Source: Anaerolinea sp.
GTDB lineage: Bacteria > Chloroflexota > Dehalococcoidia > Tepidiformales > Tepidiformaceae
Assembly (NCBI GenBank): GCA_013822275.1
Contig: PNKC01000001.1
Span: 1-64,000, forward strand
Length of the DNA stretch: 64,000 nucleotides
Reading direction: 5' to 3'
The notes beneath the pieces are model-generated. The model was not told the origin of the DNA, did no database searches, and saw nothing but the letters and a program-made list of their open reading frames with translations. The position numbers were made by a program, and so were the translations under genes. Positions 3,926 to 49,641 of the stretch are shown here, one piece after another (position 1 is the first letter of the stretch; every line of letters begins with the position of its first letter).

Positions 3926-4741
3926 TCAGGCCGTGTCGCGCTCGGGCCCTCGAAGCGTTGTGCCGCCGTCCACCACCAGGACCTGGCCGGTGATGTAGCG
4001 CGCCTGGTCCGAAAGCAGGAAGCGGACGGCGTTGCCGACATCCCAGCCCGTGCCTTCGATGCCGAGGAGCGACGCCCTGCGGCGGGCGTCGCGGGCGGGT
4101 TGGGGCATCGCTTCGCCGCCAACCATCGGTGTCAACACGGGCCCGGGCGCGACGCAGTTCACGCGGATGCCCTGCCGCCCGTGGTCGACCGCCATCGCCT
4201 TTGTCAGGCCGATTACCGCCGACTTCGAGACCGAGTAGGCGGTCAGTCCCCGCGGCATGAGGGCGGAAATCGAAGCGACATTGACGATAGCACCGCCACC
4301 GTCGGAGGCGAGCATTGCCGGGATGGCGTACTTCGAGACGAGGAACATGCTCTCCACGTTGATCTGCATCACGCGCCGCCAGGCCTCGGGCGACTCGTCC
4401 ACCACGCTCCCACGGCTGCCGATGCCGACGTTGTTGTCCAGCAGGTCGAGCCGCCCGAAGCGCTCCAGCGCGCGTTCGACCAGGGCTTCGCAGGCCACTT
4501 CATCGGTGACGTCAGCTTCGATGGCCTCCGCCATGCCACCCTCGGCGCCAATCATCTCCGCAGTGCGCTGAGCGAGTTCCAGCTCGCGGTCGACGGCAAG
4601 GACACTCGCCCCGGCGCGGGCGAGGAGGATGGCGGCGGCCCGCCCGTTGCCGATGCCATCGCCGGCGGCGCCCGCGCCGGTAACAACCGCGACCTTGCCG
4701 CGCAGGCCGAAGGGGTCGTCTGTGGCGGGTGCGTAGGGCAT
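3926..4741 (-). CDS. Short-chain dehydrogenase/reductase
   Basis: This 271-aa SDR oxidoreductase has the nucleotide loop TGAGAAGDGIGNG (about residues 21-33), slightly longer than the classical TGxxxGIG. It has DNNVG at 102-106 in place of NNAG, the Ser region NVASIS, and the catalytic Y169/K173 (YSVSK). Its C-terminus has the family VVDGG. An AGGAGG-like tract (CGGAGG) lies 4 nt before the ATG. It is transcribed away from the amidohydrolase at 4982. The intervening spacer holds heptanucleotide repeats 30 nt upstream of this start. Substrate is unknown. Confidence 0.87.
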   Translation of the reverse strand: MPYAPATDDPFGLRGKVAVVTGAGAAGDGIGNGRAAAILLARAGASVLAVDRELELAQRTAEMIGAEGGMAEAIEADVTDEVACEALVERALERFGRLDLLDNNVGIGSRGSVVDESPEAWRRVMQINVESMFLVSKYAIPAMLASDGGGAIVNVASISALMPRGLTAYSVSKSAVIGLTKAMAVDHGRQGIRVNCVAPGPVLTPMVGGEAMPQPARDARRRASLLGIEGTGWDVGNAVRFLLSDQARYITGQVLVVDGGTTLRGPERDTA

Positions 4742-4772
4742 GGGACCTCCGAGTTCGATTCACGATTGCCGA

Positions 4773-4821
4773 TTGGCTGTTGGCCGTTGGCCGTTGGCCG
4801 TTGGCCGTTGGCCGTTGGCCG
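4773..4821. repeat. Heptanucleotide tandem repeat, TTGGCCG family (7 units)
   Basis: Seven consecutive 7-bp units fill exactly 49 bp: one TTGGCTG variant and six TTGGCCG units. They lie in the divergent spacer between the SDR (start 4741) and the amidohydrolase (start 4982), next to less regular GATTGCC/GATTGGC units. Confidence 0.9.
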
Positions 4822-4845
4822 GGATGATACGCCGGGGAACGCTGC

Positions 4846-4921
4846 GCCATCAGAGCCCGGAGCGATCAATCGATTTTGGATTTTGGATTGTCGATTGGCC
4901 ATCAGAGCCCGGAGCGATCAA
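4846..4921. repeat. 24-bp direct repeat flanking GATTTTG heptamers
   Basis: Positions 4846-4869 and 4898-4921 are identical 24-bp copies 52 bp apart. Between them, 4872-4899 holds four 7-bp units (GATTTTG twice, then GATTGTC and GATTGGC). The heptamer unit belongs to the same family as the array inside the start of mutL, in inverted orientation. Confidence 0.8.
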
Positions 4922-4981
4922 GCGACGGGTTTGCAAGCGGCGTATAAACACGGGCTAGAAGCTAGAAGCCAGAGGCCCGCC

Positions 4982-5953
4982 ATGGACGAACCGATCCTCG
5001 AACCCGGACGCCGCATTTGCGACCCGCATCATCATCTTTGGGACCGCGGCGGCAACCGCTATCTGCTGGACGAATTGCTGGCCGATACCTCCAGCGGCCA
5101 CAACATTGTGAGCACCGTTTTCGTCGAGTGCCTCTCGATGTACCGCGCGGATGGTCCCGAGGAGATGAGGTGCGTTGGCGAGACGGAGTTCGTGCAGGGC
5201 GTGGCGGCGATGTCGGCCAGCGGCGGTTACGGCCCCACGCGCCACGCCGCGGGCATCGTCAGCCGCGCCAACCTCTCTCACCCAAACGCCGCAAAGGTGC
5301 TGGAGGCGCACATCGCGGCCAGCCCGAACCGCTTCCGGGGTGTGCGCGACGCAGCCGGGTGGCACCCCAGCCCGGATGTCCGCAACTCGCACACTAACCC
5401 GCCGGAGCACCTCTTCTTGCGGGAGGATTTTCGCCGCGGGTTTGCCCACCTTGCCCGCCTCGGGCTCAGCTTCGAAGCGTGGCTCTATCACCCCCAGATC
5501 CCGGAGGTGACGGCCCTCGCGCGGGCGTTCCCGGAGACGACGATCATCCTCAACCACTTCGGCGGGCCGCTCGGCATCGGGCCGTACGCGGGCCGCCAGA
5601 AGGAGGTCTTCGAGGAGTGGAAGCCAGCTCTCGATGAGCTCGCTACCTGCCCGAATGTGGTCGCCAAGCTGGGTGGCGTGAACATGCCGCTGAACGGGCT
5701 CTGGGCTTCGGACCGCGCCGCGCCGCCGGATTCGGAGGAGATCGTGGCGACCACGAAGCACTACTACGAGCACACGATCGACCGTTTCGGCCCCGGCCGC
5801 TGCATGTTCGAAAGCAACTTCCCTGTGGACAAGGCGCACGTTGGCTACGCGGAACTGTGGAACGCCTTCAAGCGGATGGCGGCGGGCTTCCGTGAAGACG
5901 AGAAGGACGCGATGTTCTACGGGACGGCGACGCGGGTCTACCGCCTGGAGTAG
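4982..5953 (+). CDS. Amidohydrolase family (amidohydrolase 2) metal-dependent hydrolase
   Basis: This 323-aa TIM-barrel hydrolase/decarboxylase-type protein belongs to the amidohydrolase 2 family. The metal-binding HxH motif is in CDPHHHLWD (about residues 13-21). A barrel His is in ILNHFGGP, and the terminal acidic residue is in FESNFPVDK. The ATG at 4982 is chosen because the domain begins there; the open frame upstream is antisense to the SDR gene and lacks domain character. Relatives act on lactones, cyclic amides or aromatic acids (ACMSD-like, 2-pyrone-4,6-dicarboxylate hydrolase-like). The actual substrate cannot be assigned. Confidence 0.82.
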   Translation: MDEPILEPGRRICDPHHHLWDRGGNRYLLDELLADTSSGHNIVSTVFVECLSMYRADGPEEMRCVGETEFVQGVAAMSASGGYGPTRHAAGIVSRANLSHPNAAKVLEAHIAASPNRFRGVRDAAGWHPSPDVRNSHTNPPEHLFLREDFRRGFAHLARLGLSFEAWLYHPQIPEVTALARAFPETTIILNHFGGPLGIGPYAGRQKEVFEEWKPALDELATCPNVVAKLGGVNMPLNGLWASDRAAPPDSEEIVATTKHYYEHTIDRFGPGRCMFESNFPVDKAHVGYAELWNAFKRMAAGFREDEKDAMFYGTATRVYRLE

Positions 5954-5992
5954 GGCTGCCCCGCAATCCGCGGATGGGCCAGCCGCATCGCG

Positions 5993-5998
5993 TACACT
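5993..5998 (+). promoter_or_regulatory. -10 element of a leaderless promoter (nucleotidyltransferase gene)
   Basis: TACACT ends 6 nt before the GTG start at 6005, with no Shine-Dalgarno between. It has the same spacing as the TATACT elements before the DinB-like, DUF433 and FmdB-like genes. Confidence 0.5.
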
Positions 5999-6004
5999 GC
6001 AAGC

Positions 6005-6643
6005 GTGCCAGCGCGCCCTCTGAGCATCGGCGAAGTCCTCCGCGACGCCCGCCTGGGCGACCTCCGCGCGCTTTTCGAAGGGCGGGAAGAGTACGACTTC
6101 TTCGGACTCACCCGGCGCCTGTTCGACCTGCTGGACGAGCGCCAGGTCGATTACGTGCTCGTGGGCGGGATGGCCATGCTCCAGTACGTTGACGGCCGCA
6201 ACACGCGCGACATCGACCTGATCCTCGCCCCCGAGAGCCTGGAGCGGTTGCCCGAGATCACCATCAGTTCACGCGAGGGTGAGTTCGTCCGCGGGGACTT
6301 CGAAGGCGTGCAGATCGACTTCCTCCTCACTTCGAACCGGCTCTTCAGGCTGGCAAGGGACGAGTACTCAGGGGTGCGTGAGTTCGCTGAGCGGCCCATC
6401 TGCTGCGCCACGCCCGAGGGGTTGGTCCTGCTGAAGCTGTTCGCGCTGCCATCGCTCTACCGGCAGGGGGACGGCGTCCGCGCCGCCATTTACGAAGCGG
6501 ACATCCGAGCGCTGCTCACGGCGGCGGACATTGACACGGACTCGATTCTCGCGACCCTATCGGCGGAAATGCTGGACACGGACGTGGCCGAACTCAGGCG
6601 GCTCGTGGACGACATTCGAGCTGGCATGAAGCGGTTCCAATAG
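6005..6643 (+). CDS. AbiEii-type nucleotidyltransferase-fold protein
   Basis: This 212-aa protein has the minimal nucleotidyltransferase signature: G54-G55 in VLVGGMAML, then D69 and D71 in TRDIDL, and a third acidic residue at D105 (VQIDFLL). That arrangement is typical of AbiEii-like toxins (type IV toxin-antitoxin) and related antibiotic nucleotidyltransferase-fold proteins, which transfer NMP to RNA or other targets. No recognisable AbiEi antitoxin gene lies next to it, so a toxin role is inference. It starts with GTG 6 nt after a TACACT box, and it ends 11 nt before the convergent MazF-like gene. Confidence 0.7.
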   Translation: MPARPLSIGEVLRDARLGDLRALFEGREEYDFFGLTRRLFDLLDERQVDYVLVGGMAMLQYVDGRNTRDIDLILAPESLERLPEITISSREGEFVRGDFEGVQIDFLLTSNRLFRLARDEYSGVREFAERPICCATPEGLVLLKLFALPSLYRQGDGVRAAIYEADIRALLTAADIDTDSILATLSAEMLDTDVAELRRLVDDIRAGMKRFQ

Positions 6644-6654
6644 TCAGGCCGCCG

Positions 6655-6981
6655 TTACCGGCCGAGTCCCAGCTGAACTCGAATCGCGCGTTCCACTCCT
6701 GCGAGTTCTTCCGCGGTGACCGCGCCAAGCCGGTTTCTCAGCCTGGTCTTACTGGCGGTCGAAATCTGGTTCGCAAGTGCTTTCTGCTGGCGTCCGCCCA
6801 CCGTAACGTAGGCCTCGGAGGCGAAAAGGCGGGCTACCTTCGTGGTCAGCGGCACGACCTGTACCCGGTTCAGCGACCGGTTGCTCGCATCATTGCTTAC
6901 GATTATGGCGGGGCGCGTTTTCTGGATCTCGCCGCCGGTGGTTTCGCCGAACTCGACCCACCACACCTCACCGCGGTTCAT
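6655..6981 (-). CDS. MazF/PemK-type mRNA interferase toxin
   Basis: This 108-aa protein starts [31 protein letters not shown], shown here only by its key parts: the RGEVWW strand and the KTRPAIIV strand with the conserved Arg-Pro, both diagnostic of the PemK/MazF fold. VVPLTTK and a later [11 protein letters not shown] segment match the remaining conserved strands. Such proteins cut mRNA at short sequences in the cytoplasm. The gene overlaps the end of the upstream antitoxin-like gene by 14 nt, the usual translationally coupled arrangement. The cleavage sequence cannot be predicted. Confidence 0.9.
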
Positions 6982-7198
6982 CAGCGATATCCGCGATCAG
7001 AGCCTCCGCCCATTCAAGTGCCTCCCGTTCGCCCTCTTCGTCCGCCGCCAGCTCCTCATAGTCTCGGACGAGGTCGTCATCCATGACATGGGGGCGAACC
7101 AGCGACTCGATGAACTGGCTAATATGGCCCTGGCCGACGCGGCGGTGAAGCCCGGCGTATACCTGTTCGTCAATTGTTATCGTCAGTTTGCGGTGCAT
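6968..7198 (-). CDS. MazE-like antitoxin, ribbon-helix-helix type
   Basis: This 76-aa protein begins [17 protein letters not shown], a short beta strand followed by a helix, as in ribbon-helix-helix repressors. Its C-terminal half is very acidic ([15 protein letters not shown]), as expected for a tail that wraps a MazF-type toxin. The ATG at 7198 is preferred over an upstream in-frame start because the domain begins there and the inverted repeat at 7201-7219 lies directly upstream. It neutralises the adjacent toxin and probably represses the shared promoter. The operator assignment is inference. Confidence 0.8.
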
Positions 7199-7200
7199 CT

Positions 7201-7219
7201 GTACGTATAGTACACGTAC
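7201..7219. promoter_or_regulatory. Inverted repeat, candidate toxin-antitoxin operator
   Basis: GTACGT (7201-7206) and ACGTAC (7214-7219) form a perfect 6-bp inverted repeat around 7 nt, starting 2 nt upstream of the antitoxin ATG. A TATACG -10-like hexamer on the minus strand lies inside it. Autoregulation by the antitoxin would fit this position. Confidence 0.5.
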
Positions 7220-7315
7220 GCCCGCGCGCCGAGAAGGCCCACGGATTTGCCACGCGCACATTCGTTCGCATCCCGCTAGAATGCGCTATCCACGGGCATG
7301 CAGGAGGGCCAGAGC

Positions 7316-9868
7316 GTGTCCACGCCCATCCGCCTCCAGTACCTCGAACTGAAGCAGCGCTACCCGGATACGATCCTCTTCTTCCGCCTGGGCGACTTCT
7401 ACGAGACGTTCGATGACGACGCGAAGCTCGTCGCGGGCGAACTGCAGATCACGCTGACCTCCAAGCCGATGGGAAAGGACCTGCGCGTGCCCCTCGCGGG
7501 CGTCCCCTACCACAGCATCGACGGGCACGTCGCGAAGCTGGTCGCGCGAGGCTACCGGGTTGCAATCTGCGAGCAGCTGGCCGACCCGGCGGAAGTGAAG
7601 GGAATCGTCCCGCGAGACGTGGTGCGCGTGGTGACTGCCGGGACGGTGACCTCGGACGCCTCGTTGGAAGCCGGCGCAGCGAACTACCTGGCGGCGCTCG
7701 CTGTCCGGAAAGGGGTCGCGGCGGCGGCACTTGCCGACATCACGACCGGCGAAGTCCGGCTTGTGCAGGGCTCGGAAGCTCCGCTTGAGCTGCTCCGCAG
7801 CGCGCCCTCCGAGCTGCTCGTTGAGCCGGACGAACAGCTTCCGGCCGGGCTAAAGGCGAACGTCGTGACCCGCCTGCCGCTGAGCGACTTCGCCGTCCAG
7901 GCGGAGCTCGCCCGGCAGTTCGGCGACCACGCGGTTGATGCGCTGGTTGAAGGGCCCGCGGAAGCAGCCGCGCTCGCCCAGCTCGTCTCGTATCTGCGCG
8001 AAACCTATGCTGCGGCGCTCGGCTCGTTGCAGCGCATCCGCCGCGTGGCTGCCGCCGGCATCCTCACGATCGACGAGCGGACGCTGCGGAACCTGGACGT
8101 GCTGCCCCAGCAGGGGCGCGAATCGTCGCTCATCGGCGTCCTCAACCGCTGCCGCTCGGCCATGGGCAGCCGCCTCCTGCGCGCCTGGCTTAGCCACCCC
8201 CTGCGCGACAAGGACGAACTCGAAGCGCGCTACGACGCCGTTGCCTGGGCCGTGGGCCACCCTATCGAACGCGAGCAGTGCCAGGCGGTCCTTCGAGGGA
8301 TGGCTGACATCGGCCGGTTGGCGGGGCGGGTTGGCGCCAGGTCAGCCGGGCCGCGTGACCTCGCCGGGCTGCGGCAGGGCCTGCGCGCGGTGCTGGACCT
8401 GGGCGCGCAGCTCGCCCGCACGGACGCAGCGCCGCTCATCGCCAAAGCGACCGCCGCGCTCGCCGGGGCCGCCGAGCCGTTGCTCTCGCTGGATGCCGCG
8501 CTTGATGACGACCCGCCGCCAACCTTCGACGAGGGCGGCGTCATCCGCCCCGGATTCACGCCGGAAATCGACTCCCTTCGCGGTCTCACGCGAGACGCCC
8601 GCGGCTTCCTTCTCGGCCTGGAGCGGCTGGAGCGCGAGCGGACCGGGATCAAGTCGTTGAAGGTGGGGCACAACAAGGTCTTTGGCTACTACATCGAAAT
8701 CAGCGCTTCGAACGCGGGCGCCGTGCCGGAGCACTACCAGCGCCGCCAGACTCTCGTCGGGGCCGAGCGCTACGTGACGGAGGAGTTGAAGGAGCACGAG
8801 TCTCGCCTGGTCGGTGCGCGCGACCGGCTGGTGGAGCTTGAGCGGCTCGCCTTCACGCAACTCGTGGAGACGCTCGCCGCCCACCTGGCCCAGCTCCAGG
8901 GCGTCGCCGAGGCGGTGGCGACCGTGGACCTCGTCCTCGCGCTGGGGGAAGTGGCTTCGGAGCGCGCCTACGTGCGCCCCACCATCGGCGCCGAGCGGGT
9001 CCGGATCGTCGATGGGCGCCACCCGGTGGTGGAAGCCGCGGAAGGCCACGGCCGGTTCGTGCCGAACGATTGCCTGATGGACGGGGACTGCCAGGTGATG
9101 CTGCTCACTGGCCCGAACATGGCGGGCAAGTCGACCTTCCTCCGGCAGGTTGCGCTGATCGCCCTGATGGCCCAGGCCGGCTCCTTCGTCCCGGCGGCCG
9201 AGGCTGAACTGCCGCTCTTCGACCGCATCTTCACCCGTATCGGCGCCCAGGACGACCTCGCGGCCGGTCAGTCCACGTTCATGGTGGAGATGGTGGAGAC
9301 GGCCCAGATCCTCCACCAGGCGACGCCGGACTCGCTCATCATCCTCGACGAAGTGGGCCGGGGGACAAGCACCTTCGACGGCATGGCGATCGCGCGGGCG
9401 GTCGTTGAGTTCGTCCACAACCGCAAGGAAGTGGCGGCGCGCACACTCTTCGCGACGCACTACCACGAACTCACCAGCCTCGCCGACGTGTTGCCGCGCG
9501 TGCGAAACGCCCACGTCTCCGTGCGCGAGGAGGGGGGCGAGGTGGTGTTCGAGCACCGCATCGTCCCCGGCCCCAGCGATCGCAGCTACGGCATCCACGT
9601 GGCGAGGTTGGCCGGCCTGCCAGGGGCGGTGATCAACCGCGCCGAGCACCTCCTGGCCGAGTTCGAAGCCCGCTCGGACGGCCTCCACCCTCACCGCACG
9701 GGCAACGGCCACGTCCGGCAACCGGCGCTCTTCGGTGGTCCTTCACCGGTGGAAGAGGCGCTCGCGAAGCTGGACGTGGACGGCCTGACGCCGATCGAGG
9801 CGATCCAGAAGCTGTATGAGCTTCGGGCGCTGATCGCGCCCGAAGCAGGCATGAGGAAAAAGGCATGA
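7316..9868 (+). CDS. mutS: DNA mismatch repair protein MutS
   Basis: This 850-aa MutS recognises mismatches in newly replicated DNA and recruits MutL. The mismatch-reading FYE motif is in RLGDFYETF (about residues 23-31). The P-loop GPNMAGKS sits at about 599-606, Walker B in LIILDEVGRGTSTFDG, and the switch His in ATHYHEL. The GTG at 7316 is chosen because AGGAGG lies 8 nt before it; an in-frame ATG at 7298 would put that Shine-Dalgarno inside the gene. The C-terminus runs into heptanucleotide repeat sequence and the stop overlaps mutL by 4 nt (ATGA). Confidence 0.97.
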   Translation: MSTPIRLQYLELKQRYPDTILFFRLGDFYETFDDDAKLVAGELQITLTSKPMGKDLRVPLAGVPYHSIDGHVAKLVARGYRVAICEQLADPAEVKGIVPRDVVRVVTAGTVTSDASLEAGAANYLAALAVRKGVAAAALADITTGEVRLVQGSEAPLELLRSAPSELLVEPDEQLPAGLKANVVTRLPLSDFAVQAELARQFGDHAVDALVEGPAEAAALAQLVSYLRETYAAALGSLQRIRRVAAAGILTIDERTLRNLDVLPQQGRESSLIGVLNRCRSAMGSRLLRAWLSHPLRDKDELEARYDAVAWAVGHPIEREQCQAVLRGMADIGRLAGRVGARSAGPRDLAGLRQGLRAVLDLGAQLARTDAAPLIAKATAALAGAAEPLLSLDAALDDDPPPTFDEGGVIRPGFTPEIDSLRGLTRDARGFLLGLERLERERTGIKSLKVGHNKVFGYYIEISASNAGAVPEHYQRRQTLVGAERYVTEELKEHESRLVGARDRLVELERLAFTQLVETLAAHLAQLQGVAEAVATVDLVLALGEVASERAYVRPTIGAERVRIVDGRHPVVEAAEGHGRFVPNDCLMDGDCQVMLLTGPNMAGKSTFLRQVALIALMAQAGSFVPAAEAELPLFDRIFTRIGAQDDLAAGQSTFMVEMVETAQILHQATPDSLIILDEVGRGTSTFDGMAIARAVVEFVHNRKEVAARTLFATHYHELTSLADVLPRVRNAHVSVREEGGEVVFEHRIVPGPSDRSYGIHVARLAGLPGAVINRAEHLLAEFEARSDGLHPHRTGNGHVRQPALFGGPSPVEEALAKLDVDGLTPIEAIQKLYELRALIAPEAGMRKKA

Positions 9869-9876
9869 GGCATGAG
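9849..9876. repeat. GCATGAG heptamers at the mutS/mutL junction
   Basis: Three GCATGAG units (9849-9855, 9863-9869, 9870-9876) span the last codons of mutS and the first codons of mutL. The mutS stop TGA and the mutL ATG both lie inside repeat units. It is the same family as the long array at 15031-15121. Confidence 0.75.
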
Positions 9877-11739
9877 AGGCCCGCCCCTCCCTCCCGGGCC
9901 CCCTCGGCCCCGGCTCGCCCGGCGAAGCCCTCGGACAGTCCGGACCTGAATCCAAAATCCAAGATCCAAAATCCAAAATCGATCCAGATCCTGCCGCCGG
10001 AGGTGGCGGCCCGGATTGCCGCTGGCGAAGTCATCGAGCGGCCGGTTTCGGTGGTGCGCGAACTGCTGGATAACGCCATTGATGCGGGGGCGACGCGGAT
10101 TAGCCTTGAGATCGAAGAAGGCGGGGTGAGCCTGATCCGCGTCACGGACGACGGCCGGGGTATCCCGCCGGAGCAGATTGAACTCGCCTTCGAACGCCAC
10201 GCAACCAGCAAGATCGAAGCAGTCAGCGACCTTGGCCATGTGCGCACCCTCGGCTTCCGGGGGGAGGCGCTGCCTTCCATCGCTTCCGCTGCCGATGTGG
10301 AGATCATCACCCGCGCCGCCAGTGAGCCGGTTGGCGTGATGGCGGTGCTGGTGGATGCGCGCGTGGTCCGGCGGGCCGCCCGTCCCGCGCCCGTGGGCAC
10401 CAGCTTCGCCGTCCGCGACCTCTTCGCCCGGCTGCCGGCGCGGCGCAAGTTCCTCGCCACCATCGCGGCGGAGACGCGCCAGGTGACGGTGCTCGCCTCG
10501 CACTACGCCCTCGCCTACCCGGGGATCGCGTTCCAGTTCAGTTCCGGCGGGCGGCGGGCCCTTACCACCAGCGGAGACGGCGACCTTCGCCACGCCTTCG
10601 CGGCGGTTTACGGAGCGGAGGTCGCTTCAGTGATGCTCGATGTGGACCACGAAGAGGAGGGTGTGCGGGTGACGGGGCTCGCCGGGCCGCCATCGCAGAA
10701 CCGCGGCAACCGCGCGGCCATTTCGATTTTCGTGAACGGGCGCTGGGTGCAGAGCCGCCCGCTCACCTTCGCTGTTGTCGATGCCTACCAGTCGCAGTTG
10801 CCGGTTGGGCGCCACCCGGTGGCCGCGCTCGCCGTTTCGATCGGCGATGAGGACGTGGATGTGAACGTCCACCCGGCGAAGGCGGAAGTGCGCTTCCGCG
10901 ATGAGCGGACGGTTGGCCGGGTTGTGCGCCGGGCGGTGGGGATGGCACTCGATGGCGCGCGCGTGGTCTCGTGGTTTGAACCACAAGCCGAGGGGCGGGA
11001 TCCAGCCGAGGATGGATCTTCGCAGGCACCTTCGCTGGAGCCAGGTGAGGCGCGGACCGGACAGCGCCTCAGCCTCCGGCTCGCGCCCCAGACGGTCCAG
11101 GGGCGAATGGAGATGTCTCGGGCCGCCGCGCAGACACCTTCTGCCCAACCCGCCCATCGCGACCTCCTGCCGCTGCTGCGCGTGGTCGGGCAGATGGGCG
11201 GGACGTACATCGTGGCGGAAGGGCCCGACGGGATGTATCTGCTGGATCAGCACGCCGCCCACGAGCGCGTGATGTACGACCGCCTGGTCCAGCGGCGGGA
11301 CTCAGAAGGGGCACGGCCATCGCAGCCGCTGCTCGAACCGCTGGTGGCCGAGCTCGACCCCGTGCAGGCGGCCGTGCTCGCCGAGCACCGTGACCACCTT
11401 GCCAGCCTTGGCCTGGATGCCGAACCGTTCGGCGACAACGCCTACCTGGTGCGGGCCATCCCTGCGGGCATCGGCGGGACCGATGTGGTGAGCGAGTTGC
11501 GGGCCGTGTTGGACCAGCTTGGCGGCGAGAGGCGCGTGAGCGACCCGTTCCGGCGGGCGGCGGCAACGGTCGCGTGTCACAGCAGCGTGCGCGCGGGCAT
11601 GGCGCTGGCGATGGACGAAATGCGCCGCCTGGTCGAGGACCTCGAACGCACGGCATCCCCGCGCACCTGCCCCCACGGGCGGCCGACGCTGGTGCACGTG
11701 GGCACTGAGTTGATTGAGCGGCAGTTCGGGCGGCGGTGA
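9865..11739 (+). CDS. mutL: DNA mismatch repair protein MutL (endonuclease type)
   Basis: This 624-aa MutL couples MutS mismatch recognition to strand removal. GHKL ATPase motifs are present: AAGEVIERP with RELLDNAIDAG, then DDGRGI and TLGFRGEALPSI. The C-terminal domain has DQHAAHERVMYD, the metal-dependent nicking motif with the last Glu replaced by Asp. ACHSSVRAG and CPHGRP also mark endonuclease-type MutL. The true domain begins at IQILPPEVA (about residue 41). The preceding 40 residues are low-complexity, and about 11 of them are encoded by a 7-bp repeat array. The ATG overlaps the mutS stop, so a later non-ATG start is possible. Confidence 0.95.
   Translation: MRHERPAPPSRAPSAPARPAKPSDSPDLNPKSKIQNPKSIQILPPEVAARIAAGEVIERPVSVVRELLDNAIDAGATRISLEIEEGGVSLIRVTDDGRGIPPEQIELAFERHATSKIEAVSDLGHVRTLGFRGEALPSIASAADVEIITRAASEPVGVMAVLVDARVVRRAARPAPVGTSFAVRDLFARLPARRKFLATIAAETRQVTVLASHYALAYPGIAFQFSSGGRRALTTSGDGDLRHAFAAVYGAEVASVMLDVDHEEEGVRVTGLAGPPSQNRGNRAAISIFVNGRWVQSRPLTFAVVDAYQSQLPVGRHPVAALAVSIGDEDVDVNVHPAKAEVRFRDERTVGRVVRRAVGMALDGARVVSWFEPQAEGRDPAEDGSSQAPSLEPGEARTGQRLSLRLAPQTVQGRMEMSRAAAQTPSAQPAHRDLLPLLRVVGQMGGTYIVAEGPDGMYLLDQHAAHERVMYDRLVQRRDSEGARPSQPLLEPLVAELDPVQAAVLAEHRDHLASLGLDAEPFGDNAYLVRAIPAGIGGTDVVSELRAVLDQLGGERRVSDPFRRAAATVACHSSVRAGMALAMDEMRRLVEDLERTASPRTCPHGRPTLVHVGTELIERQFGRR
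9949..9983. repeat. Heptamer array AATCCAA within the 5' end of mutL
   Basis: Five 7-bp units (AATCCAA, AATCCAA, GATCCAA, AATCCAA, AATCGAT) run without interruption. Because 7 is not a multiple of 3, translation gives a 7-residue period. The reverse complement shares 20 nt with the GATTTTG repeat near 4870. Confidence 0.85.
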
Positions 11740-11867
11740 ATCGGAGCCGCGACCGTCAGAGAGCGGTTGGGAGGATTCCTGCCATCTGACCTAGAATCAC
11801 TCGAACGCTCGCCTCGGCATGGACGCGACGTGTGGTAACCGCTCTCTTACGGTCGCGGCTCCGATTC
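11738..11867. repeat. 130-bp MITE-like or hairpin element with 31-bp inverted ends
   Basis: Arms 11738-11768 and 11837-11867 are inverted copies of 31 bp with one mismatch, enclosing 68 nt. The left arm begins inside the mutL stop codon, and the right arm ends 13 bp before the end of the convergent DUF433 gene. It could act as a bidirectional terminator, or be a miniature inverted-repeat element. No obvious target-site duplication flanks it and no second copy is visible in the window. Confidence 0.75.
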
Positions 11868-11880
11868 GATACGGTGGCGG

Positions 11881-12087
11881 TCATTGAGCTGGTTGCGGGA
11901 TGGTGCTGGCATATGTCAGAGCGGCTACCACGTCCTCACGTTCAAGTTCGGGGTAGGCCTCAAGTACGCGCTCAATCGTGTAGCCGCCCGCGAGCATACC
12001 GAGGATGTTCCGGACCATGATCCGCGTTCCGCGGATGCAGGGTTTGCCGCTACAGATCGCGGGGTCAGAAACGATGCGTTCGTCCAT
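11881..12087 (-). CDS. DUF433 domain protein (antitoxin-like)
   Basis: This 68-aa protein has the complete DUF433 pattern: an IVSDPAICSGKPCIRGTRI opening, then NILGMLAGGYTIERVLEAYPELEREDVVAAL. It folds as a small winged-helix-like domain. DUF433 proteins are usually antitoxins encoded beside a PIN-like DUF5615 toxin. Here no such partner follows; downstream is only the 130-bp inverted-repeat element and the end of mutL. Either the toxin was lost or this is a solitary regulator. The start lies 6 nt after a TATACT box with no Shine-Dalgarno, indicating a leaderless message. Confidence 0.85.
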   Translation of the reverse strand: MDERIVSDPAICSGKPCIRGTRIMVRNILGMLAGGYTIERVLEAYPELEREDVVAALTYASTIPQPAQ

Positions 12088-12093
12088 GCGGAC

Positions 12094-12099
12094 AGTATA
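12094..12099 (-). promoter_or_regulatory. -10 element of a leaderless promoter (DUF433 gene)
   Basis: On the minus strand TATACT ends exactly 6 nt before the DUF433 ATG (12087). No Shine-Dalgarno is present. Confidence 0.55.
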
Positions 12100-12130
12100 C
12101 GGCGGTCGCCAAGCCCCCTGCGGAGCGGCC

Positions 12131-13567
12131 CTATCCCTGGAGCTTTTGCCACTCCAGGAGGCGGGCGAGGGCGTGGCCGGCGCGGGCGATGGTTGGGTAG
12201 GTGGCAAGGCCGTTGTGCCAGCAGAGGGCCTGGAACTGCTCGGCCTGTTCGAACGCTTCGGCGCTGACGGATGGCCGGATGGCGACGACGACTGGTTTGC
12301 CGCCTTCTTCCTGCACCTTGCGCAGGGTCGCCACCTGGCGCTCCATCCGTCCGCGGACGTCCACCTGGCGAGCCATGGGGCCGCCGCCGAAACTGGTGTG
12401 GTAGAGGAGGACATCGATGTTCGGAGCCTTGGCGCAGGGCATGAGCGTGGCTTCGAAGCCGGTGTCTTCCCAGAGACTGGTGGTGTCGATCGGGTTGCGG
12501 ACACTCGTCCCCGCCTCGTGCGTGACTTTTGCGAGTTCCGCCTGCGTCTCTGGAAGGAGCGGCGGCACCTGCAGGCCGGCGGCGTCCAGGTCGTCGGCCG
12601 CGAGGACGCTCGCGCCGCCTCCTCCGCCGACCACGACAACGTTCGGCCCGCCCAGGCGCTTTACGAAGCGGAAGGTCACCGCAATGTCCACCAGTTCTTC
12701 CATGCTCTCGACGCGGAGGGCGCCGGCCTGCTTGCAGAGGCCGTCAAACACCTGGAGCGAGCCCGCCAGCGACGCGGTGTGTGAGTTTGCCGCGCGGGAG
12801 CCTGCCTCGGTCCGGCCGCTCTTGAGGATGGCGAGGGGCTTGGTCTTGCCCGCGCGGCGGATGGCCGTGGCAAGACGGGGGCCGTCCTGGATGCCTTCGA
12901 GGTAGGCGACGATGATCTCGGTCTCCGGGTCGTCCGTCAGGTAATCGATGAAATCCGCCGCGTTGAGGTCGGCGCCGTTGCCAAAACTGATGATCTTGGA
13001 AGCGCGGATGCCGCGGGGCACGGCGTAGCGAATGAATTCGCCCGCGTTCATGCCGGACTGGGAGACCATGCCGACCGGTCCCGCTTCGGGGATCTGGCCC
13101 TGCATCATGGCGAGGCGGGCGCCAGGGACGTAGAGGCCCATGCAGTTCGGGCCGATCATGCGGATCCCGGCTTCGCGCGCCCGCGCCACCACGGCCTGCT
13201 CCATCTTCGCTTTCTCGGCATCGCCGGTTTCGGTGAAGCCCGCGGTGAAAAGGTGGAGGACTTTCACGCCCTTGGCGATGCAGTCTTCGAGCAGTTGGGG
13301 GACGACGCGGGCGTTCACCGATGAAATGACGTAGTCGACTTCGTCCGGGATGTCCCGGAGCGACTTGTAGCACTTCAGCCCGCGGATCGCCGTTGCTGTT
13401 GGGTGGATCAGGAAGATGGGCCCGCGGAAGCCGATCTCTTGCAGAGAAGCGACGAAGCCGCCGCCGCCGAAGCCGGTGCCCTCCTTCGCCGACACGCCCG
13501 CTATGGCGATCGATTTCGGGTGAAAAACGTAGTCAAGCTTGGGCACGGTCAGCTCAGCAGCGGTCAC
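12131..13567 (-). CDS. Acyl-CoA synthetase (NDP-forming), CoA-binding and ligase domains
   Basis: This 478-aa protein resembles the alpha part of NDP-forming acyl-CoA synthetases, which interconvert acyl-CoA plus NDP and acid plus NTP. It starts with a Rossmann CoA-binding domain (FHPKSIAIAGVSAKEGTGFG) and continues with succinyl-CoA-ligase-like domains. IGPNCMGLYVP and MVSQSGMNA are typical, and SHTASLAG carries the probable phospho-His. The ATP-grasp beta half is absent from the polypeptide, so a partner subunit elsewhere would be needed. The GTG at 13567 is preferred because GGAG lies 8 nt before it. An in-frame GTG at 13600 is possible. Confidence 0.85.
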   Translation of the reverse strand: MTAAELTVPKLDYVFHPKSIAIAGVSAKEGTGFGGGGFVASLQEIGFRGPIFLIHPTATAIRGLKCYKSLRDIPDEVDYVISSVNARVVPQLLEDCIAKGVKVLHLFTAGFTETGDAEKAKMEQAVVARAREAGIRMIGPNCMGLYVPGARLAMMQGQIPEAGPVGMVSQSGMNAGEFIRYAVPRGIRASKIISFGNGADLNAADFIDYLTDDPETEIIVAYLEGIQDGPRLATAIRRAGKTKPLAILKSGRTEAGSRAANSHTASLAGSLQVFDGLCKQAGALRVESMEELVDIAVTFRFVKRLGGPNVVVVGGGGGASVLAADDLDAAGLQVPPLLPETQAELAKVTHEAGTSVRNPIDTTSLWEDTGFEATLMPCAKAPNIDVLLYHTSFGGGPMARQVDVRGRMERQVATLRKVQEEGGKPVVVAIRPSVSAEAFEQAEQFQALCWHNGLATYPTIARAGHALARLLEWQKLQG

Positions 13568-13752
13568 AGTCGCTTCTCCAGGACGTGGTTCGTCGCGCAC
13601 AGGGATCGCCGGGTCAAGGCGCTCCCCCCGGCGCCCCTGAGCTTACCAGAGCCGCGCGTTTCCGGCTTCTCGGCGGTGTCTTGCCTTTTCGAGCCTGTTA
13701 CCGGGCCCTCAACTATGCTGGACGGACCGGGGAGGGCCGCAGGCCGCGCATC

Positions 13753-14490
13753 ATGGCAATCCTATCCAGACTCGCAGGCGTGGCGTTCATCGTCGCCATC
13801 CCCATCTTCCTTGTGACGGCGAACGTCCGTTTTTTCGCGACCGAGACGCGCTTTTACGAGCGCGGCTTTCGCAAGTACGGGGCCGAGGAAGCAACCGGCA
13901 TTCCGCTCGACCAACTGGACCGCGCCGCGGGCGAAATCGTCAAGTATTTCGAAGACGACGCGGCAGCCCTGCGGATCATCGTCACCAAGGACGGCCAGGA
14001 AGTGTCGCTCTTCAGTACGCGTGAAATCGACCACATGCGCGACGTGAAGTCGCTGATGCGGCTCGTATTTCGCCTCAATGAATTCTCGCTTGCGTACATC
14101 CTGAGTTTCGTGGCGGCCGTCTACCTCTGGGCGAAGGAGCGGCCACTGCGGTCGCTCGCGCGGCAGGCGATGCTGGGGGTTGGCGTGGGCTTCGGGGCGC
14201 TGATCGTAGTTGGGGCCTTCGCCGTGACGGGGTTCGATGCGGCCTGGACGAAGTTCCACCAAATCGCTTTCAACAACGACCTCTGGCGGCTCGACCCTTC
14301 GCGCGACCACCTGATCCAGATGTTCCCGGAGGAGTTCTGGCAGGAGGCGACGTACCTGGTCGGTATCTTCACGCTCGCCGAGGCGGTCCTGATTGTGGCG
14401 CTGGCATCGACGTACCTGGTGCTGTCGCGGGGGCCAGCGAAGAGCAAAGAGCAAAGAGCGCAGAGCCGGGAACGCCAGGCGGAAGGCTGA
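13753..14490 (+). CDS. DUF1461 (TIGR01906-type) integral membrane protein
   Basis: This 245-aa membrane protein has about four to five hydrophobic helices, with an N-terminal one at residues 5-24, and a large extracytoplasmic loop between the first and second. The conserved family ending LDPSRDHLIQMFPEEFWQEA precedes the last helix. Function of the family is unknown. The final 17 residues (AKSKEQRAQSRERQAEG) are unlike the rest and are encoded by a 7-bp tandem repeat, so repeat expansion seems to have supplied the C-terminal tail. The ATG at 13753 is chosen as the start of the first helix. Confidence 0.8.
   Translation: MAILSRLAGVAFIVAIPIFLVTANVRFFATETRFYERGFRKYGAEEATGIPLDQLDRAAGEIVKYFEDDAAALRIIVTKDGQEVSLFSTREIDHMRDVKSLMRLVFRLNEFSLAYILSFVAAVYLWAKERPLRSLARQAMLGVGVGFGALIVVGAFAVTGFDAAWTKFHQIAFNNDLWRLDPSRDHLIQMFPEEFWQEATYLVGIFTLAEAVLIVALASTYLVLSRGPAKSKEQRAQSRERQAEG
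14437..14471. repeat. Heptamer array GCAAAGA inside the DUF1461 gene end
   Basis: Five 7-bp units (GCGAAGA, GCAAAGA, GCAAAGA, GCGCAGA, GCCGGGA) encode the basic C-terminal tail. Related units reappear at 49614-49641. Confidence 0.8.
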
Positions 14491-14509
14491 CGTCGCGTTG
14501 GGGGAGAGT

Positions 14510-14797
14510 GTGCTGCCTGGACTCAGCTTCGTGGCGGTGATGCTGGGCCCGGCTGTGGCGTCGGCGGTGTTCGCCGGCCGAGGGTCACAACTCAACGCGG
14601 CGATTGGGGCGGGCGCCGTATCCGCGCTCGTGGTCGCGGTCGTCACGTTCTCGCTGAACGCGGGCAACGGTGACTCGGGTACCATCCTGGCACTTGTGGC
14701 GGCTACCACGATGGGCATCGTCTCGTTCGGCCTGGCCTCCGTGGCGGCGTTGACGGCGTTCGGGCTGCGAAGCCGCGACGGACGGCGGAAGGCTTAA
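14510..14797 (+). CDS. Small membrane protein of unknown function
   Basis: About 95 residues with three hydrophobic segments (LSFVAVMLGPAVASAVFA, IGAGAVSALVVAVVTFSL, ILALVAATTMGIVSFGLASVAALTAF, roughly residues 4-85) and a short basic tail. I do not recognise a family. The start is uncertain: GTG 14510 follows a purine-rich GGGGGAGA but with short spacing, and TTG 14498 is an alternative. It follows the DUF1461 membrane gene closely and may be co-transcribed with it. Its end overlaps by 4 nt the end of the convergent FmdB-like gene. Confidence 0.5.
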   Translation: MLPGLSFVAVMLGPAVASAVFAGRGSQLNAAIGAGAVSALVVAVVTFSLNAGNGDSGTILALVAATTMGIVSFGLASVAALTAFGLRSRDGRRKA

Positions 14798-15015
14798 TTC
14801 GAACAGGCGCAGCCGCCGCCACCACCGCAGCAGCCGCCGCCGGCCGGCATGGAGAACTCTTCGCCGGCCCCCGTGCGCGCCATGGCGAACGCTGTGATCG
14901 TCCGTTCGGCCCGGTGGCCCTTCGTGCATGTGGTGGCAACGCCCGCCTGGGACATCGGCTTGCGTTTTTCGAATTTGTCGCGGCAGGTGGGGCAGTAGTA
15001 CTCGTAAATGGCCAT
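14794..15015 (-). CDS. FmdB-family zinc ribbon protein
   Basis: This 73-aa protein has the FmdB regulatory-domain pattern, MAIYEYYCPTC with a CxxC knuckle at residues 8-11. The second half is unusual: a single Cys and a His in TTCTKGH replace a clear second CxxC. The end is Gly/Cys-rich (GGGCCGGGGGCACSN), a tail seen in several family members and possibly metal-binding. Family role is poorly defined; members are proposed regulators or zinc proteins. The ATG lies 6 nt after TATACT, consistent with a leaderless mRNA. A 13-unit heptamer array starts just behind that box. Confidence 0.8.
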   Translation of the reverse strand: MAIYEYYCPTCRDKFEKRKPMSQAGVATTCTKGHRAERTITAFAMARTGAGEEFSMPAGGGCCGGGGGCACSN

Positions 15016-15021
15016 GGGGAG

Positions 15022-15027
15022 AGTATA
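15022..15027 (-). promoter_or_regulatory. -10 element of a leaderless promoter (FmdB-like gene)
   Basis: TATACT on the minus strand is 6 nt before the ATG at 15015. The heptamer array begins at 15031, only 3 bp behind the box, so the array occupies the whole -35 region. Confidence 0.55.
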
Positions 15028-15030
15028 GCG

Positions 15031-15121
15031 GAGGCACGAGGCATGAGGCATGAGGCATGAGGCACGAGGCATGAGGAATGAGGAATGAGGAATGAGGAAT
15101 GAGGAATGAGGAATGAGGAAT
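15031..15121. repeat. Heptanucleotide tandem repeat, GAGGCAT/GAGGAAT family (13 units)
   Basis: Thirteen uninterrupted 7-bp units cover exactly 91 bp: six GAGGCAT/GAGGCAC units followed by seven GAGGAAT units. The division into two blocks suggests stepwise expansion of different variants. It lies between two minus-strand genes and directly behind the promoter of the FmdB-like gene. Confidence 0.95.
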
Positions 15122-15132
15122 GAGACCTCGCG

Positions 15133-15438
15133 CTAGGCGGCGCGGTGGCCGCGGCGGCGGCGAGTGCGGGTTGCGGGCACTTCGCGGCGCTCCTCGGCGG
15201 CGGCGGCTTCCACTTCGGCTGCGATTTCCGGCAGCTCGGGGGCGGCCACTTCCACGATGACATCTGGTTCTTCCGTGACGGCAGCGGCGGGTTCGCTGAG
15301 AGCCGGGAGCCCGAGAGGCTGGCCGGAGAGGACGGCGCGGGTGATATCGTTTGCCGGTTCTACCCAATGGGCACTGTCGTCCCGGTGGAGGGAGACGAGG
15401 TTGAGCAGAGCCCGCCACCAGCGGAGGAGTAAGGGCAT
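15133..15438 (-). CDS. Hypothetical protein, Ala/Glu-rich
   Basis: A possible 101-aa product. It has an amphipathic, Trp-containing N-terminus (MPLLLRWWRALLNLV), a middle of ordinary composition, and an Ala/Glu-rich, then Arg-rich C-terminus (RTRRRRGHR). I recognise no family. The low-complexity second half could be a coiled coil or simply a consequence of high GC. Codon-level evidence is weak, and the start at 15438 has neither a clear Shine-Dalgarno nor a well-spaced -10 box. Treat as tentative. Confidence 0.35.
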   Translation of the reverse strand: MPLLLRWWRALLNLVSLHRDDSAHWVEPANDITRAVLSGQPLGLPALSEPAAAVTEEPDVIVEVAAPELPEIAAEVEAAAAEERREVPATRTRRRRGHRAA

Positions 15439-15485
15439 AAGGTGTAGACAATAACCCGCCTGTCCACCGAAGGGCAACTTCGGCC

Positions 15486-16271
15486 TCAGGGTTTCGCCTC
15501 GCCCGCGGCAGAGAGAAAGCGCAGGACCACCTCGTTCCATTCGGCGGCGCGTTCGAAGTAGGCGGAGTGGCCGGCGCCCTTGATTTCGTGGAACGCGGCG
15601 CCCGGGATGAGGGCCTGGGCTTCGCGGATCATCTCCGGTGAGGTGATGAGGTCGTGTTCGCCGACGACGAAGAGGACGGGGACGCCGAGGTTGCCGATGC
15701 CTTCGTGCATGCTCCCACGGTAGGTGGCCGGGGGGCGGCCGAGGAAGCCCCGTGGGCGCGGCGGGTTGAGGGCGTTGATCTGGCGGTAGAGGAGAGCGAG
15801 GCCGGGGTTTTCGACTTCGAACGGCTTGGCAAGGGCGTGCTCCCGCAGGCCGCCTTTGCCCCGCTCGTCCTTCAGTTCATCCTGAAGTTCACGCACGCGG
15901 TCGTTGGTTGAACCGGCGGTGGTGCCGCAGAGGACGAGGGAGCGGGCTCTGTGCGGTGCAAGCCGGGTGAGCCCGGCGACGGCGCGCCCGCCCATCGATT
16001 GGGCGACGACATGCGCCCGTCCGATGCCGAGATGCTCCATGAGGGCGACGAGGTCCGTGCCGAGGGAGAAGCGGCCGACGGCCATCTCTCCACGGGAGAG
16101 CCCCCAGCCGCGCGCGTCGTAGACGGTGCAGCGGTAGTGGCGGGCGAAGACGTTGACCTGTTGCCACCAGGAGAGGTGGTTACCGCCCGCCCCGTGGAGG
16201 AAGACGACGTCATCCCCTTTGCCGTGCTGTTCGTAATAGATGCGGGCGGCGTTGACCGTGGCGTAGGGCAC
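15486..16271 (-). CDS. Alpha/beta-fold hydrolase
   Basis: This 261-aa hydrolase has all three catalytic elements. The nucleophile S92 is in AQSMGGRA. An acidic residue lies in VGEHDLITS, and the His is in GAGHSAYFE near the C-terminus. The oxyanion-hole HGAGG is at about residues 26-30. It resembles cytoplasmic esterases and 3-oxoadipate enol-lactone-type hydrolases. The substrate is unknown. The GTG start is 6 nt downstream of TAAACT with no Shine-Dalgarno, again a leaderless pattern, and a heptamer array begins 3 bp behind that box. Confidence 0.88.
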   Translation of the reverse strand: MPYATVNAARIYYEQHGKGDDVVFLHGAGGNHLSWWQQVNVFARHYRCTVYDARGWGLSRGEMAVGRFSLGTDLVALMEHLGIGRAHVVAQSMGGRAVAGLTRLAPHRARSLVLCGTTAGSTNDRVRELQDELKDERGKGGLREHALAKPFEVENPGLALLYRQINALNPPRPRGFLGRPPATYRGSMHEGIGNLGVPVLFVVGEHDLITSPEMIREAQALIPGAAFHEIKGAGHSAYFERAAEWNEVVLRFLSAAGEAKP

Positions 16272-16277
16272 GGGGGC

Positions 16278-16283
16278 AGTTTA
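16278..16283 (-). promoter_or_regulatory. -10 element of a leaderless promoter (hydrolase gene)
   Basis: TAAACT on the minus strand ends 6 nt before the GTG at 16271. A heptamer array starts at 16286, 3 bp upstream of the box, as at the FmdB-like gene. Confidence 0.5.
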
Positions 16284-16285
16284 CA

Positions 16286-16327
16286 GGAATAGGGAATGAG
16301 GAATGAGGCGCGGGGCACGAGGCACGG
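16286..16327. repeat. Heptamer array GGAATGA/GGCACGA (6 units)
   Basis: Six contiguous 7-bp units (GGAATAG, GGAATGA, GGAATGA, GGCGCGG, GGCACGA, GGCACGG) are related to the array at 15031-15121. It fills most of the spacer between the hydrolase promoter and the next minus-strand gene. Confidence 0.8.
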
Positions 16328-16340
16328 GGGGAGCGAACTG

Positions 16341-16595
16341 CTAATACGGGTAGGTGTACGGAGGCTCATCGGGAGGAATGACGGGGGGCGCCGGGGCTGT
16401 TGGGCTGGGCGATGGCAGCGGCCGGGCGGCTGCAGCAGAATTCGCGGCGAGTCCCGCGAGGATGAGGCGATTCGGGAGGTTGGCGGCGGCTCTCGCTGAG
16501 TCCCCACTGGCGCCAACGGCGGCAAGGAGCGTCCCGCCCGCGAAGAGGATCAGCACGCCCAGGGGCAGGAACCCTGTTGACCAGACACGGCGCAT
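16341..16595 (-). CDS. Small single-pass membrane protein with Pro-rich tail
   Basis: About 84 residues. One hydrophobic segment near the N-terminus (FLPLGVLILFAGGTLLAAVG, about residues 9-28) looks like a signal anchor. It is followed by an Ala-rich stretch and a Pro/Ser-rich end (PSPSPTAPAPPVIPPDEPPYTYPY in outline). No known family. It is divergent from murI, with about 56 bp between the two starts. An upstream in-frame start at 16661 would overlap the murI start and is less likely. Confidence 0.5.
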   Translation of the reverse strand: MRRVWSTGFLPLGVLILFAGGTLLAAVGASGDSARAAANLPNRLILAGLAANSAAAARPLPSPSPTAPAPPVIPPDEPPYTYPY

Positions 16596-16637
16596 ATCAA
16601 CAGTACGGGGCAGGGGCGCGCCCGGATTGCCCCGTGG

Positions 16638-16643
16638 TATGCT
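16638..16643 (+). promoter_or_regulatory. Candidate -10 element for murI
   Basis: TATGCT ends 8 nt before the murI ATG, which has no Shine-Dalgarno. It fits the leaderless pattern but with slightly longer spacing. Confidence 0.35.
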
Positions 16644-16651
16644 CTGTGCCG

Positions 16652-17434
16652 ATGGATCCACGTGCCGTCGGCATCTTCGATTCCGGTGCCGGTGGGTTGA
16701 GCGTGCTGGGCTACTTCCGCGGTTTCGCGCCGCGCGAGCGCGTCGTCTACTTCGCCGATACGGCTTACTTCCCGTACGGACCGCGGCCTGCCGCGGAGGT
16801 GCGCAAGCGCTCGTTCGCCGTCACCAACCGGCTCCTGGCGAGCGGCGTGAAGCTGATCATCGTGGCCTGCAACACGGCCTCCGCGGCGGCGATCGAAGAC
16901 CTGCGGGGGGCGTTCCCGGTGCCCTTCGTTGGGATGGTGCCCGGCGTGAAGCCCGCCGCGAGTTCATCGAAGAGCGGGCGCGTGGCCATCCTCGCCACGC
17001 CGGGGACGCTCGACGGGGAGCTGTACGCGCGGGTGGTCGAGGAGTTCGGCGGGCGGGCGGCGATAACGAGCGTGGCGGGCACGGGGCTGGCCGAACTCGT
17101 GGAGCGTGGAGACGCTGGCACCCCGTCCGCACAGGCTGCTGTGCGGGGGGCGCTGGGCCCGGCAATAGCGGCCGGCGCGGACACGGTTGTACTGGGCTGC
17201 ACGCACTACCATTTCCTCACCGCAGACATCCTCGCGGAGTTCCCCGGCGTTTCCATAATCGATACCAGCCAAGCGGTGGCGCGGCGGGCCGTCCAGGTGC
17301 TTTCGGAGGCGGACGCGCTCGCGCCGGCATCCCAGGAGGGCGAATTGGACCTGATCGTCAGCGGAGACCGCAAGCAGTTCCGCCGGACGATGGCCCGGCT
17401 CGGCTTCGCACCAGCAGCAGTGGAGGCAACGTGA
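16652..17434 (+). CDS. murI: Glutamate racemase
   Basis: This 260-aa cytoplasmic enzyme makes D-glutamate for peptidoglycan. Both catalytic cysteines are visible, in VACNTASA and LGCTHYHF. The N-terminal FDSGAGGLSVL has the conserved Asp, and FADTAYFPYG is the usual substrate-contacting motif. Length is typical. The ATG at 16652 gives the conserved start (MDPRAVGIFDSG). The stop TGA overlaps the pyrF ATG by 1 nt, so murI-pyrF-DUF951-MFS form one tightly packed operon. Confidence 0.95.
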   Translation: MDPRAVGIFDSGAGGLSVLGYFRGFAPRERVVYFADTAYFPYGPRPAAEVRKRSFAVTNRLLASGVKLIIVACNTASAAAIEDLRGAFPVPFVGMVPGVKPAASSSKSGRVAILATPGTLDGELYARVVEEFGGRAAITSVAGTGLAELVERGDAGTPSAQAAVRGALGPAIAAGADTVVLGCTHYHFLTADILAEFPGVSIIDTSQAVARRAVQVLSEADALAPASQEGELDLIVSGDRKQFRRTMARLGFAPAAVEAT

Positions 17435-49613: not shown

Positions 49614-49641
49614 GCGAAGCGCAGAGAGCAGAGAGCCCGGA
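49614..49641. repeat. Short heptamer array GCAGAGA
   Basis: Four 7-bp units (GCGAAGC, GCAGAGA, GCAGAGA, GCCCGGA) are related to the array at 14437-14471. Confidence 0.6.

Follow-up and report, generated by a model that had tools for sequence, protein, structure and literature searches.

The short tandem arrays of the window (the whole stretch of 64 kb that was analysed) are filed here with the known bacterial heptanucleotide repeats of the long SSR/STRR kind. They are probably word-specific, dispersed repeats whose modules were copied between sites and then reshaped by slippage, mostly without being selected. In the window's genome, arrays of about 3–13 units are scattered mostly over intergenic sites, tandem 7-base units clearly exceed units of any other length, and a small set of consensus units ("words") returns at many loci. 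This genome is a MAG of 3.28 Mb with 66% GC, 288 contigs and 77% completeness, and the window covers contig 1 from its start to 64 kb. Among named relatives, the best match of the window's MutL comes from a Dehalococcoidia MAG (70% identity), which places the uncultured host in that part of the Chloroflexota.

Arrays in the window were detected with Tandem Repeats Finder (TRF) and by direct reading of the letters. All of the 7-bp arrays listed in a first-pass annotation were found at their sites, with slightly shifted coordinates. Three of them are strong. The first (4756–4821, plus strand) keeps a single 7-base register while its unit drifts from CGATTNN to CCGTTGG, the TTGGCCG copies following CGATTCA, CGATTGC and CGATTGG; its part from 4768 to 4821 has a TRF score of 92, and it lies between the divergent genes of an SDR oxidoreductase (minus strand, start at 4741) and an amidohydrolase (plus strand, start at 4983). 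The second is a GATTTTG array on the minus strand (9949–9980), which can be read as CAAAATC or as AATCCAA on the plus strand. It is in frame in the mutL reading frame and encodes NPKSKIQNPKS, a non-conserved N-terminal extension, and the MutL family model begins downstream of it, at residue 36–40. The third and longest (15031–15124, plus strand; 13.4 copies, 95%, TRF score 125) consists of GAGGCAT/GAGGCAC blocks followed by seven GAGGAAT units and lies immediately upstream of a TATACT box and the ATG of a minus-strand gene; its family has 42 matches in the genome.

The remaining arrays of the window all have their word on the plus strand. TRF and reading identified a second GATTTTG array at 4872–4897, with a dispersed element on either side (copies at 4852 and 4904), and a GAGCAAA/GAGCAGA array at 14436–14466, in the part of a membrane protein gene that encodes the C-terminal tail. 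A short GCTAGAA array within the leader of the amidohydrolase gene (4954–4977) was absent from the earlier list. Weak when taken singly, and credible only through the recurrence of their words elsewhere, are a GGCATGA array with 73% matches at the overlap of the mutS stop and the mutL start (9847–9876), two degenerate stretches of GAGGAAT and GAGGCAC upstream of a minus-strand alpha/beta hydrolase gene (16285–16326), and 2.3 copies of GCAGAGA (49621–49636), which are near chance alone and belong to the word family of the array at 14436. Genes surrounding the window's arrays are ordinary ones, namely mutS, mutL, and those for the SDR oxidoreductase, the alpha/beta hydrolase, the membrane protein and pyrF. 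An Rfam scan of window positions 4000–17000 gave no family at the gathering score, and two window arrays that were folded did no better than shuffles. In cyanobacteria, small dispersed repeats occur inside heptamer arrays.

The predominance of one unit length was measured in an 811-kb sample, which equals 25% of the assembly and was drawn from its largest contigs. At a score of at least 16, period 7 accounted for 25 arrays in these 811 kb, while periods 5, 6, 8 and 9, whose equal frequency would have spoken against a special role of seven, yielded 0, 0, 1 and 1. The period spectrum of this sample also peaks at 14 and 21, both of them multiples of 7. Exact runs of at least 14 matching positions, counted in 464 kb, gave a similar picture, with 8 for period 7, none for periods 2–6 and 8, and one for period 9; a block-shuffled control yielded no such run. 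The initial statement that all arrays have a period of 7 holds well for the window's genome, in which a single octamer array was found, but not for the related genus G022, where 9 period-8 arrays exist beside 27 period-7 arrays.

The arrays of the window's genome draw on a limited vocabulary. The 40 arrays analysed represent 20 distinct consensus words, which belong to the families GAGGMAY, GAGCARA, ACTCRGG/GAGTSCT, GATTNNN and GGCYGTY as well as some rarer ones. Array pairs that differ by at most one mismatch number 75; when the letters of the words are shuffled the mean is 15, and with random heptamers from the flanks it is 28. Three tandem copies of GGAATGA match the genome 18 times and three of GAGCAAA 23 times, whereas the letter-reversed controls match nowhere. 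The earlier proposal of a conserved period with an unconserved sequence is borne out in its first half by the near-exclusive period and contradicted in its second half by the recurrence of a few words. Related genera carry words of the window's genome at other sites, again with letter-reversed controls nearly absent, and four exact words are common to this genome and its relative G041, compared with 0.27 for shuffled words. Among close relatives, the occurrence of words is nevertheless patchy. A GGCTGTY array at locus L069 is missing from the orthologous interval of G022 (L182), and the mutS-mutL junction, which holds two arrays in 131 bp in the window, measures 51 bp and has none in the nearest named relative (L083). 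The relative's junction is array-free but for a single GGCATGAG, and this lone copy might represent a seed, although it is one case only.

When units are aligned in register, one or two of the seven positions take up the bulk of the substitutions in most word families. In the window's genome, a single position received 12 of the 16 substitutions in GCTCTTT and 12 of the 19 in CCGTTGG; in relatives, the corresponding figures are 38 of 55 for AGTTCCC and 29 of 35 for ACTCAGC. The word CTGCGTN of the unclassified genome G043 has 29 of 36 substitutions at one position, where the bases are G (16), C (11), A (10) and T (8). Five positions without any change in 45 units are hard to obtain from neutral drift. 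Chi-square values for this position bias are overstated, as units within one genome are related, and GATTTTG in the window's genome showed no concentration of substitutions at particular positions. No description of position-specific freedom across many words of one genome was found in the open-licence literature, which is not proof of novelty.

A rough gene prediction from codon usage places 33 of the 40 arrays in intergenic DNA, which makes up 12% of the sequence, and 6 in coding sequence; as in heptanucleotide long SSRs and STRRs, the arrays are thus mainly intergenic and spread over many loci. Read by eye, the start of an array often coincides with a stop codon, or its end with a TATACT box. 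In three genomes, TGA-bearing words were found with the word strand equal to the coding strand in a ratio of 36:15 behind stops and of 14:28 before starts (P = 0.0004). Such a polarity at gene ends is what selection against false starts, together with tolerance of harmless stops, would be expected to leave behind.

In relatives, many arrays are arranged in mirrored pairs that make up inverted, hairpin-like elements. The arrays of G015 consist mostly of modules of 25–32 bases, and across a spacer of 25–60 bp the left and right words lie on opposite strands in 20 of 21 cases, against an overall strand balance of 42:47; in 15 of the 20 cases with flipped polarity the two flanking words differ. 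The spacer itself is palindromic and recurs between genes, as GGCAACCCC...GGGGTTGCC or a near variant. GATTTTG and GAGTGCT arrays of other Chloroflexota families are likewise mirrored about short spacers, and three mirrored elements (two from these families and one from G015) fold far better than shuffles, with z values of -7 to -12. Searching for a reverse-complement copy of at least 12 nt within 250 bp of an array identified inverted partners for 55% of the arrays in mirrored Chloroflexota loci, which had been chosen by a GATTTTG search, for 16–31% in G043, G015 and G022, and for 10% in G041. These values are to be read against a baseline of 11–19% in G015 and G022, where an array drawn at random from the rest of the genome pairs at this rate because modules cluster. 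Inverted arms were rejected for the window's own genome, in which none of the 40 arrays has such a partner; its arrays are therefore single arms. No description of the G015 polarity rule was found in the open-licence literature, which again does not prove novelty.

The preferred scenario accommodates these observations in two steps. A short multi-unit module would be copied into an intergenic site from another place in the genome; alternatively, a process with a preference for these words might give rise to it. Replication slippage in 7-base steps would then make the new arrays longer or shorter and more uniform. Most arrays would be without a selected function, and selection would mainly remove those that fall into coding sequence or are wrongly oriented near gene ends, since TGA- or ATG-bearing orientations supply stops or false starts. 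Module copying is what one 30-base composite in G022 points to, as it is present at eight places and has unrelated flanks in the six that were fully read. The order of unit variants in this composite looked striking and conserved, but is only marginally non-random once all orders are counted. Against the scenario, no target duplication was seen around modules read by eye, and Y1 transposase and reverse transcriptase genes were rejected as correlates of the arrays, as neither correlates with them across the genomes examined. It is also against the scenario that the mirrored arms are known from relatives only and not from the window's genome, and that the mutS-mutL array may derive from the local GGCATGAG, which would fit slippage from a seed.

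Replication slippage alone, with chance local duplications nucleating and expanding and a length of 7 bp favoured by the polymerase footprint, is an unlikely account of the whole. It would explain the near-exclusive period 7, the GGCATGAG seed at the relative's array-free junction, and, in the window's genome, the block structure and the surplus of identical adjacent units. There, 57 of 118 neighbouring units are identical compared with 41 expected from shuffling within arrays (P = 0.0005), and slippage therefore lengthens arrays in this genome. Identical neighbouring units are not in excess in G022, however, and pure slippage predicts neither words that recur while their reversed controls hardly occur nor substitutions at fixed positions; the polarity flip across the cores of G015, moreover, is mostly between different words. 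It is argued here that slippage explains the length of the arrays but not the recurrence, free positions, dispersal or polarity of their words. Of the slippage originally put forward, a signature of local unit duplication in the window's genome is borne out. That words have fixed and free positions, and that promoters and gene ends lie near arrays, could also be expected of a selected binding array, in which one or more proteins would recognise a 6-base motif repeated every 7 bases, selection thereby holding most positions and leaving one free, for example in nucleoid organisation or gene regulation. This is quite improbable, as the many words per genome would require numerous proteins or one of very broad tolerance, the arrays are patchy among close relatives, and the neighbours of the window's arrays are functionally unrelated. 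Phase variation, by which 7-base slippage would switch an adjoining gene on or off, is very unlikely. Because seven cannot be divided evenly by three, a change in copy number of the arrays inside reading frames (14436 and 9949) would shift the frame, and some arrays adjoin promoters, but 33 of 40 are intergenic, many of them directly behind stop codons, and most genes next to arrays in the window are housekeeping genes.

The other mechanism suggested at the outset was an enzyme copying 7 nt. A templated writer, that is, a telomerase-like or other reverse transcriptase producing 7-base units from RNA templates, would agree with the fixed unit length, with a set of words per lineage and with a single free position, which could be an untemplated base, and the window's genome does contain one RVT_1 match. 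It is nonetheless extremely unlikely. The two array-richest relatives, G015 (94% complete) and G022 (89%), were found to be without an RVT_1 match in a search covering reverse transcriptase only, whereas genomes without the words tested do have one; in the sense of a reverse transcriptase, the suggestion was not upheld. More broadly, a dedicated writer might in each cycle copy most of the unit faithfully and leave one position untemplated, and would add modules, each some four units long, that run outward from palindromic cores with a fixed polarity. We attach little probability to this version, under which the words would represent each lineage's set of templates rather than neutral products of slippage. 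Whatever the mechanism, it must account for word recurrence, free positions and the flip of polarity at the core, each of which can be checked in any set of genomes. Reports of a heptamer excess in bacteria go back years, with no explanation offered beyond a guess at polymerase slippage.

This footprint hypothesis is cited for bacterial heptamer repeats in studies describing heptanucleotide long SSRs such as GGGAATC in Xanthomonas and GGGGA(C/T)T in Nostoc (PMC4692102) and TAACTGA repeats in Beggiatoaceae and cyanobacteria (PMC4679880). The window's arrays share with such repeats the period of 7, the intergenic position, the many loci, the patchy phylogeny and the heptamer excess, but differ in their words, in the coexistence of several word families and in their position-specific variation. 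The P6b stem of the Nostoc trnL intron is built from degenerate heptamers of Class I (TDNGATT) and Class II (NNTGAGT; PMC4476775), which also have fixed and free positions; TTGGATT and GCTGAGT of the window's genome fit the two patterns, and the arrays of relatives likewise form two arms of a stem. In contrast, the window's arrays lie between or at the ends of protein genes rather than in a tRNA-Leu(UAA) group I intron, and a complementary arm is lacking in this genome (0 of 40). From the same phylum, genome-scattered (GATAGRA)n satellites with one free position (R) have been described in Chloroflexus aurantiacus, where the authors suggest transposition (PMC6749651), though there a single, different word is involved instead of several. 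The constant-length tandem repeat families of Bacillus resemble the arrays in their fixed length and in the presence of several sequence families per genome, but their units are much longer (52 or 20–21 nt; PMC8161180). The repeated intergenic palindrome that forms the G015 core recalls REP/BIME elements, which differ from it in that the G015 core has heptamer arms of fixed polarity, and no Y1 (RAYT-type) transposase was found in G015, the bearer of these cores.

A universal vocabulary across phyla was ruled out, as exact sharing of words is nil with G043 and non-significant with cyanobacterial plasmids, the cyanobacterial stretches in this comparison having been selected by a match. Only single words, namely GATTTTG, GAGGAAT and CTGAGTN, are widely shared across phyla. 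Of 400 Chloroflexota genomes, 9, which belong to several families, hold 286 matches to three tandem copies of GATTTTG, compared with 2 for the control, and the birth of arrays could be watched in Chloroflexota with dozens of GATTTTG arrays as well as in the genus of G015 and G022. The same triplet of GATTTTG occurs 13 times in a Planctomycetaceae MAG, compared with 0 for the control.

At the mutS-mutL junction, the start of the mutL reading frame falls within heptamer arrays (window positions 9865-9980). The annotated mutL start or N-terminus is probably array-derived, because the match to the MutL family model begins only at residue 36-40 of the reading frame. Several arrays are directly terminated by a TATACT box situated a few bases ahead of a start codon, as found at window positions 15017-15031 (minus strand) and at the loci L070 (6427) and L131 (6650). 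These array ends look as though leaderless promoters bound the arrays.

Dispersed elements were also found next to heptamer arrays. Two copies of an intergenic element, AGAGCCCGGAGCGATCAAGCGACGGGT, flank the GATTTTG array of the window (4852-4873 and 4904-4925); the element has 19 matches across the genome when up to three mismatches are allowed, and several of the further copies are located less than 200 bp from a heptamer array. A second dispersed element, CAGGAGCGTGTCCGTACCGYGCGCGACAGCAAGCGG, occurs at L054 (17976) and L069 (16372), where it lies immediately to the right of one array built from CTGTCGT and another built from GGCTGTY.

A single array of 205 bases in another genome, G333 (L250, 7-211), changes its word several times, from among ATTTTGG, ATTTCGG, ATTCGCA and ATTTTGC, while the 7-base register is kept throughout. 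Arrays of period 8 with words of their own, for example GGCGTAAC, ACACCTAG and CCGATACN, were identified in the array-rich relative G022 (L170, L171, L177, L179 and L180), in the unclassified genome G043 (L120-L124) and at L057 (9520-9564). The word CCGATACN is common to the window's genome and the unrelated G043.

Heptamer modules and arrays are also carried by plasmids. A plasmid of Kovacikia minuta (L226, 16252-16407) exhibits a row of four modules, each of another word (ATTTTGA, CTGAGTG, CTTCTGG and TCTGCCC), which resembles the module rows of G015, another array-rich relative. CTGAGTN arrays are present as well in two gammaproteobacterial plasmids, from Erwinia sp. E602 (L228) and Legionella antarctica (L229), close to genes for an IS110 transposase and a tyrosine recombinase.
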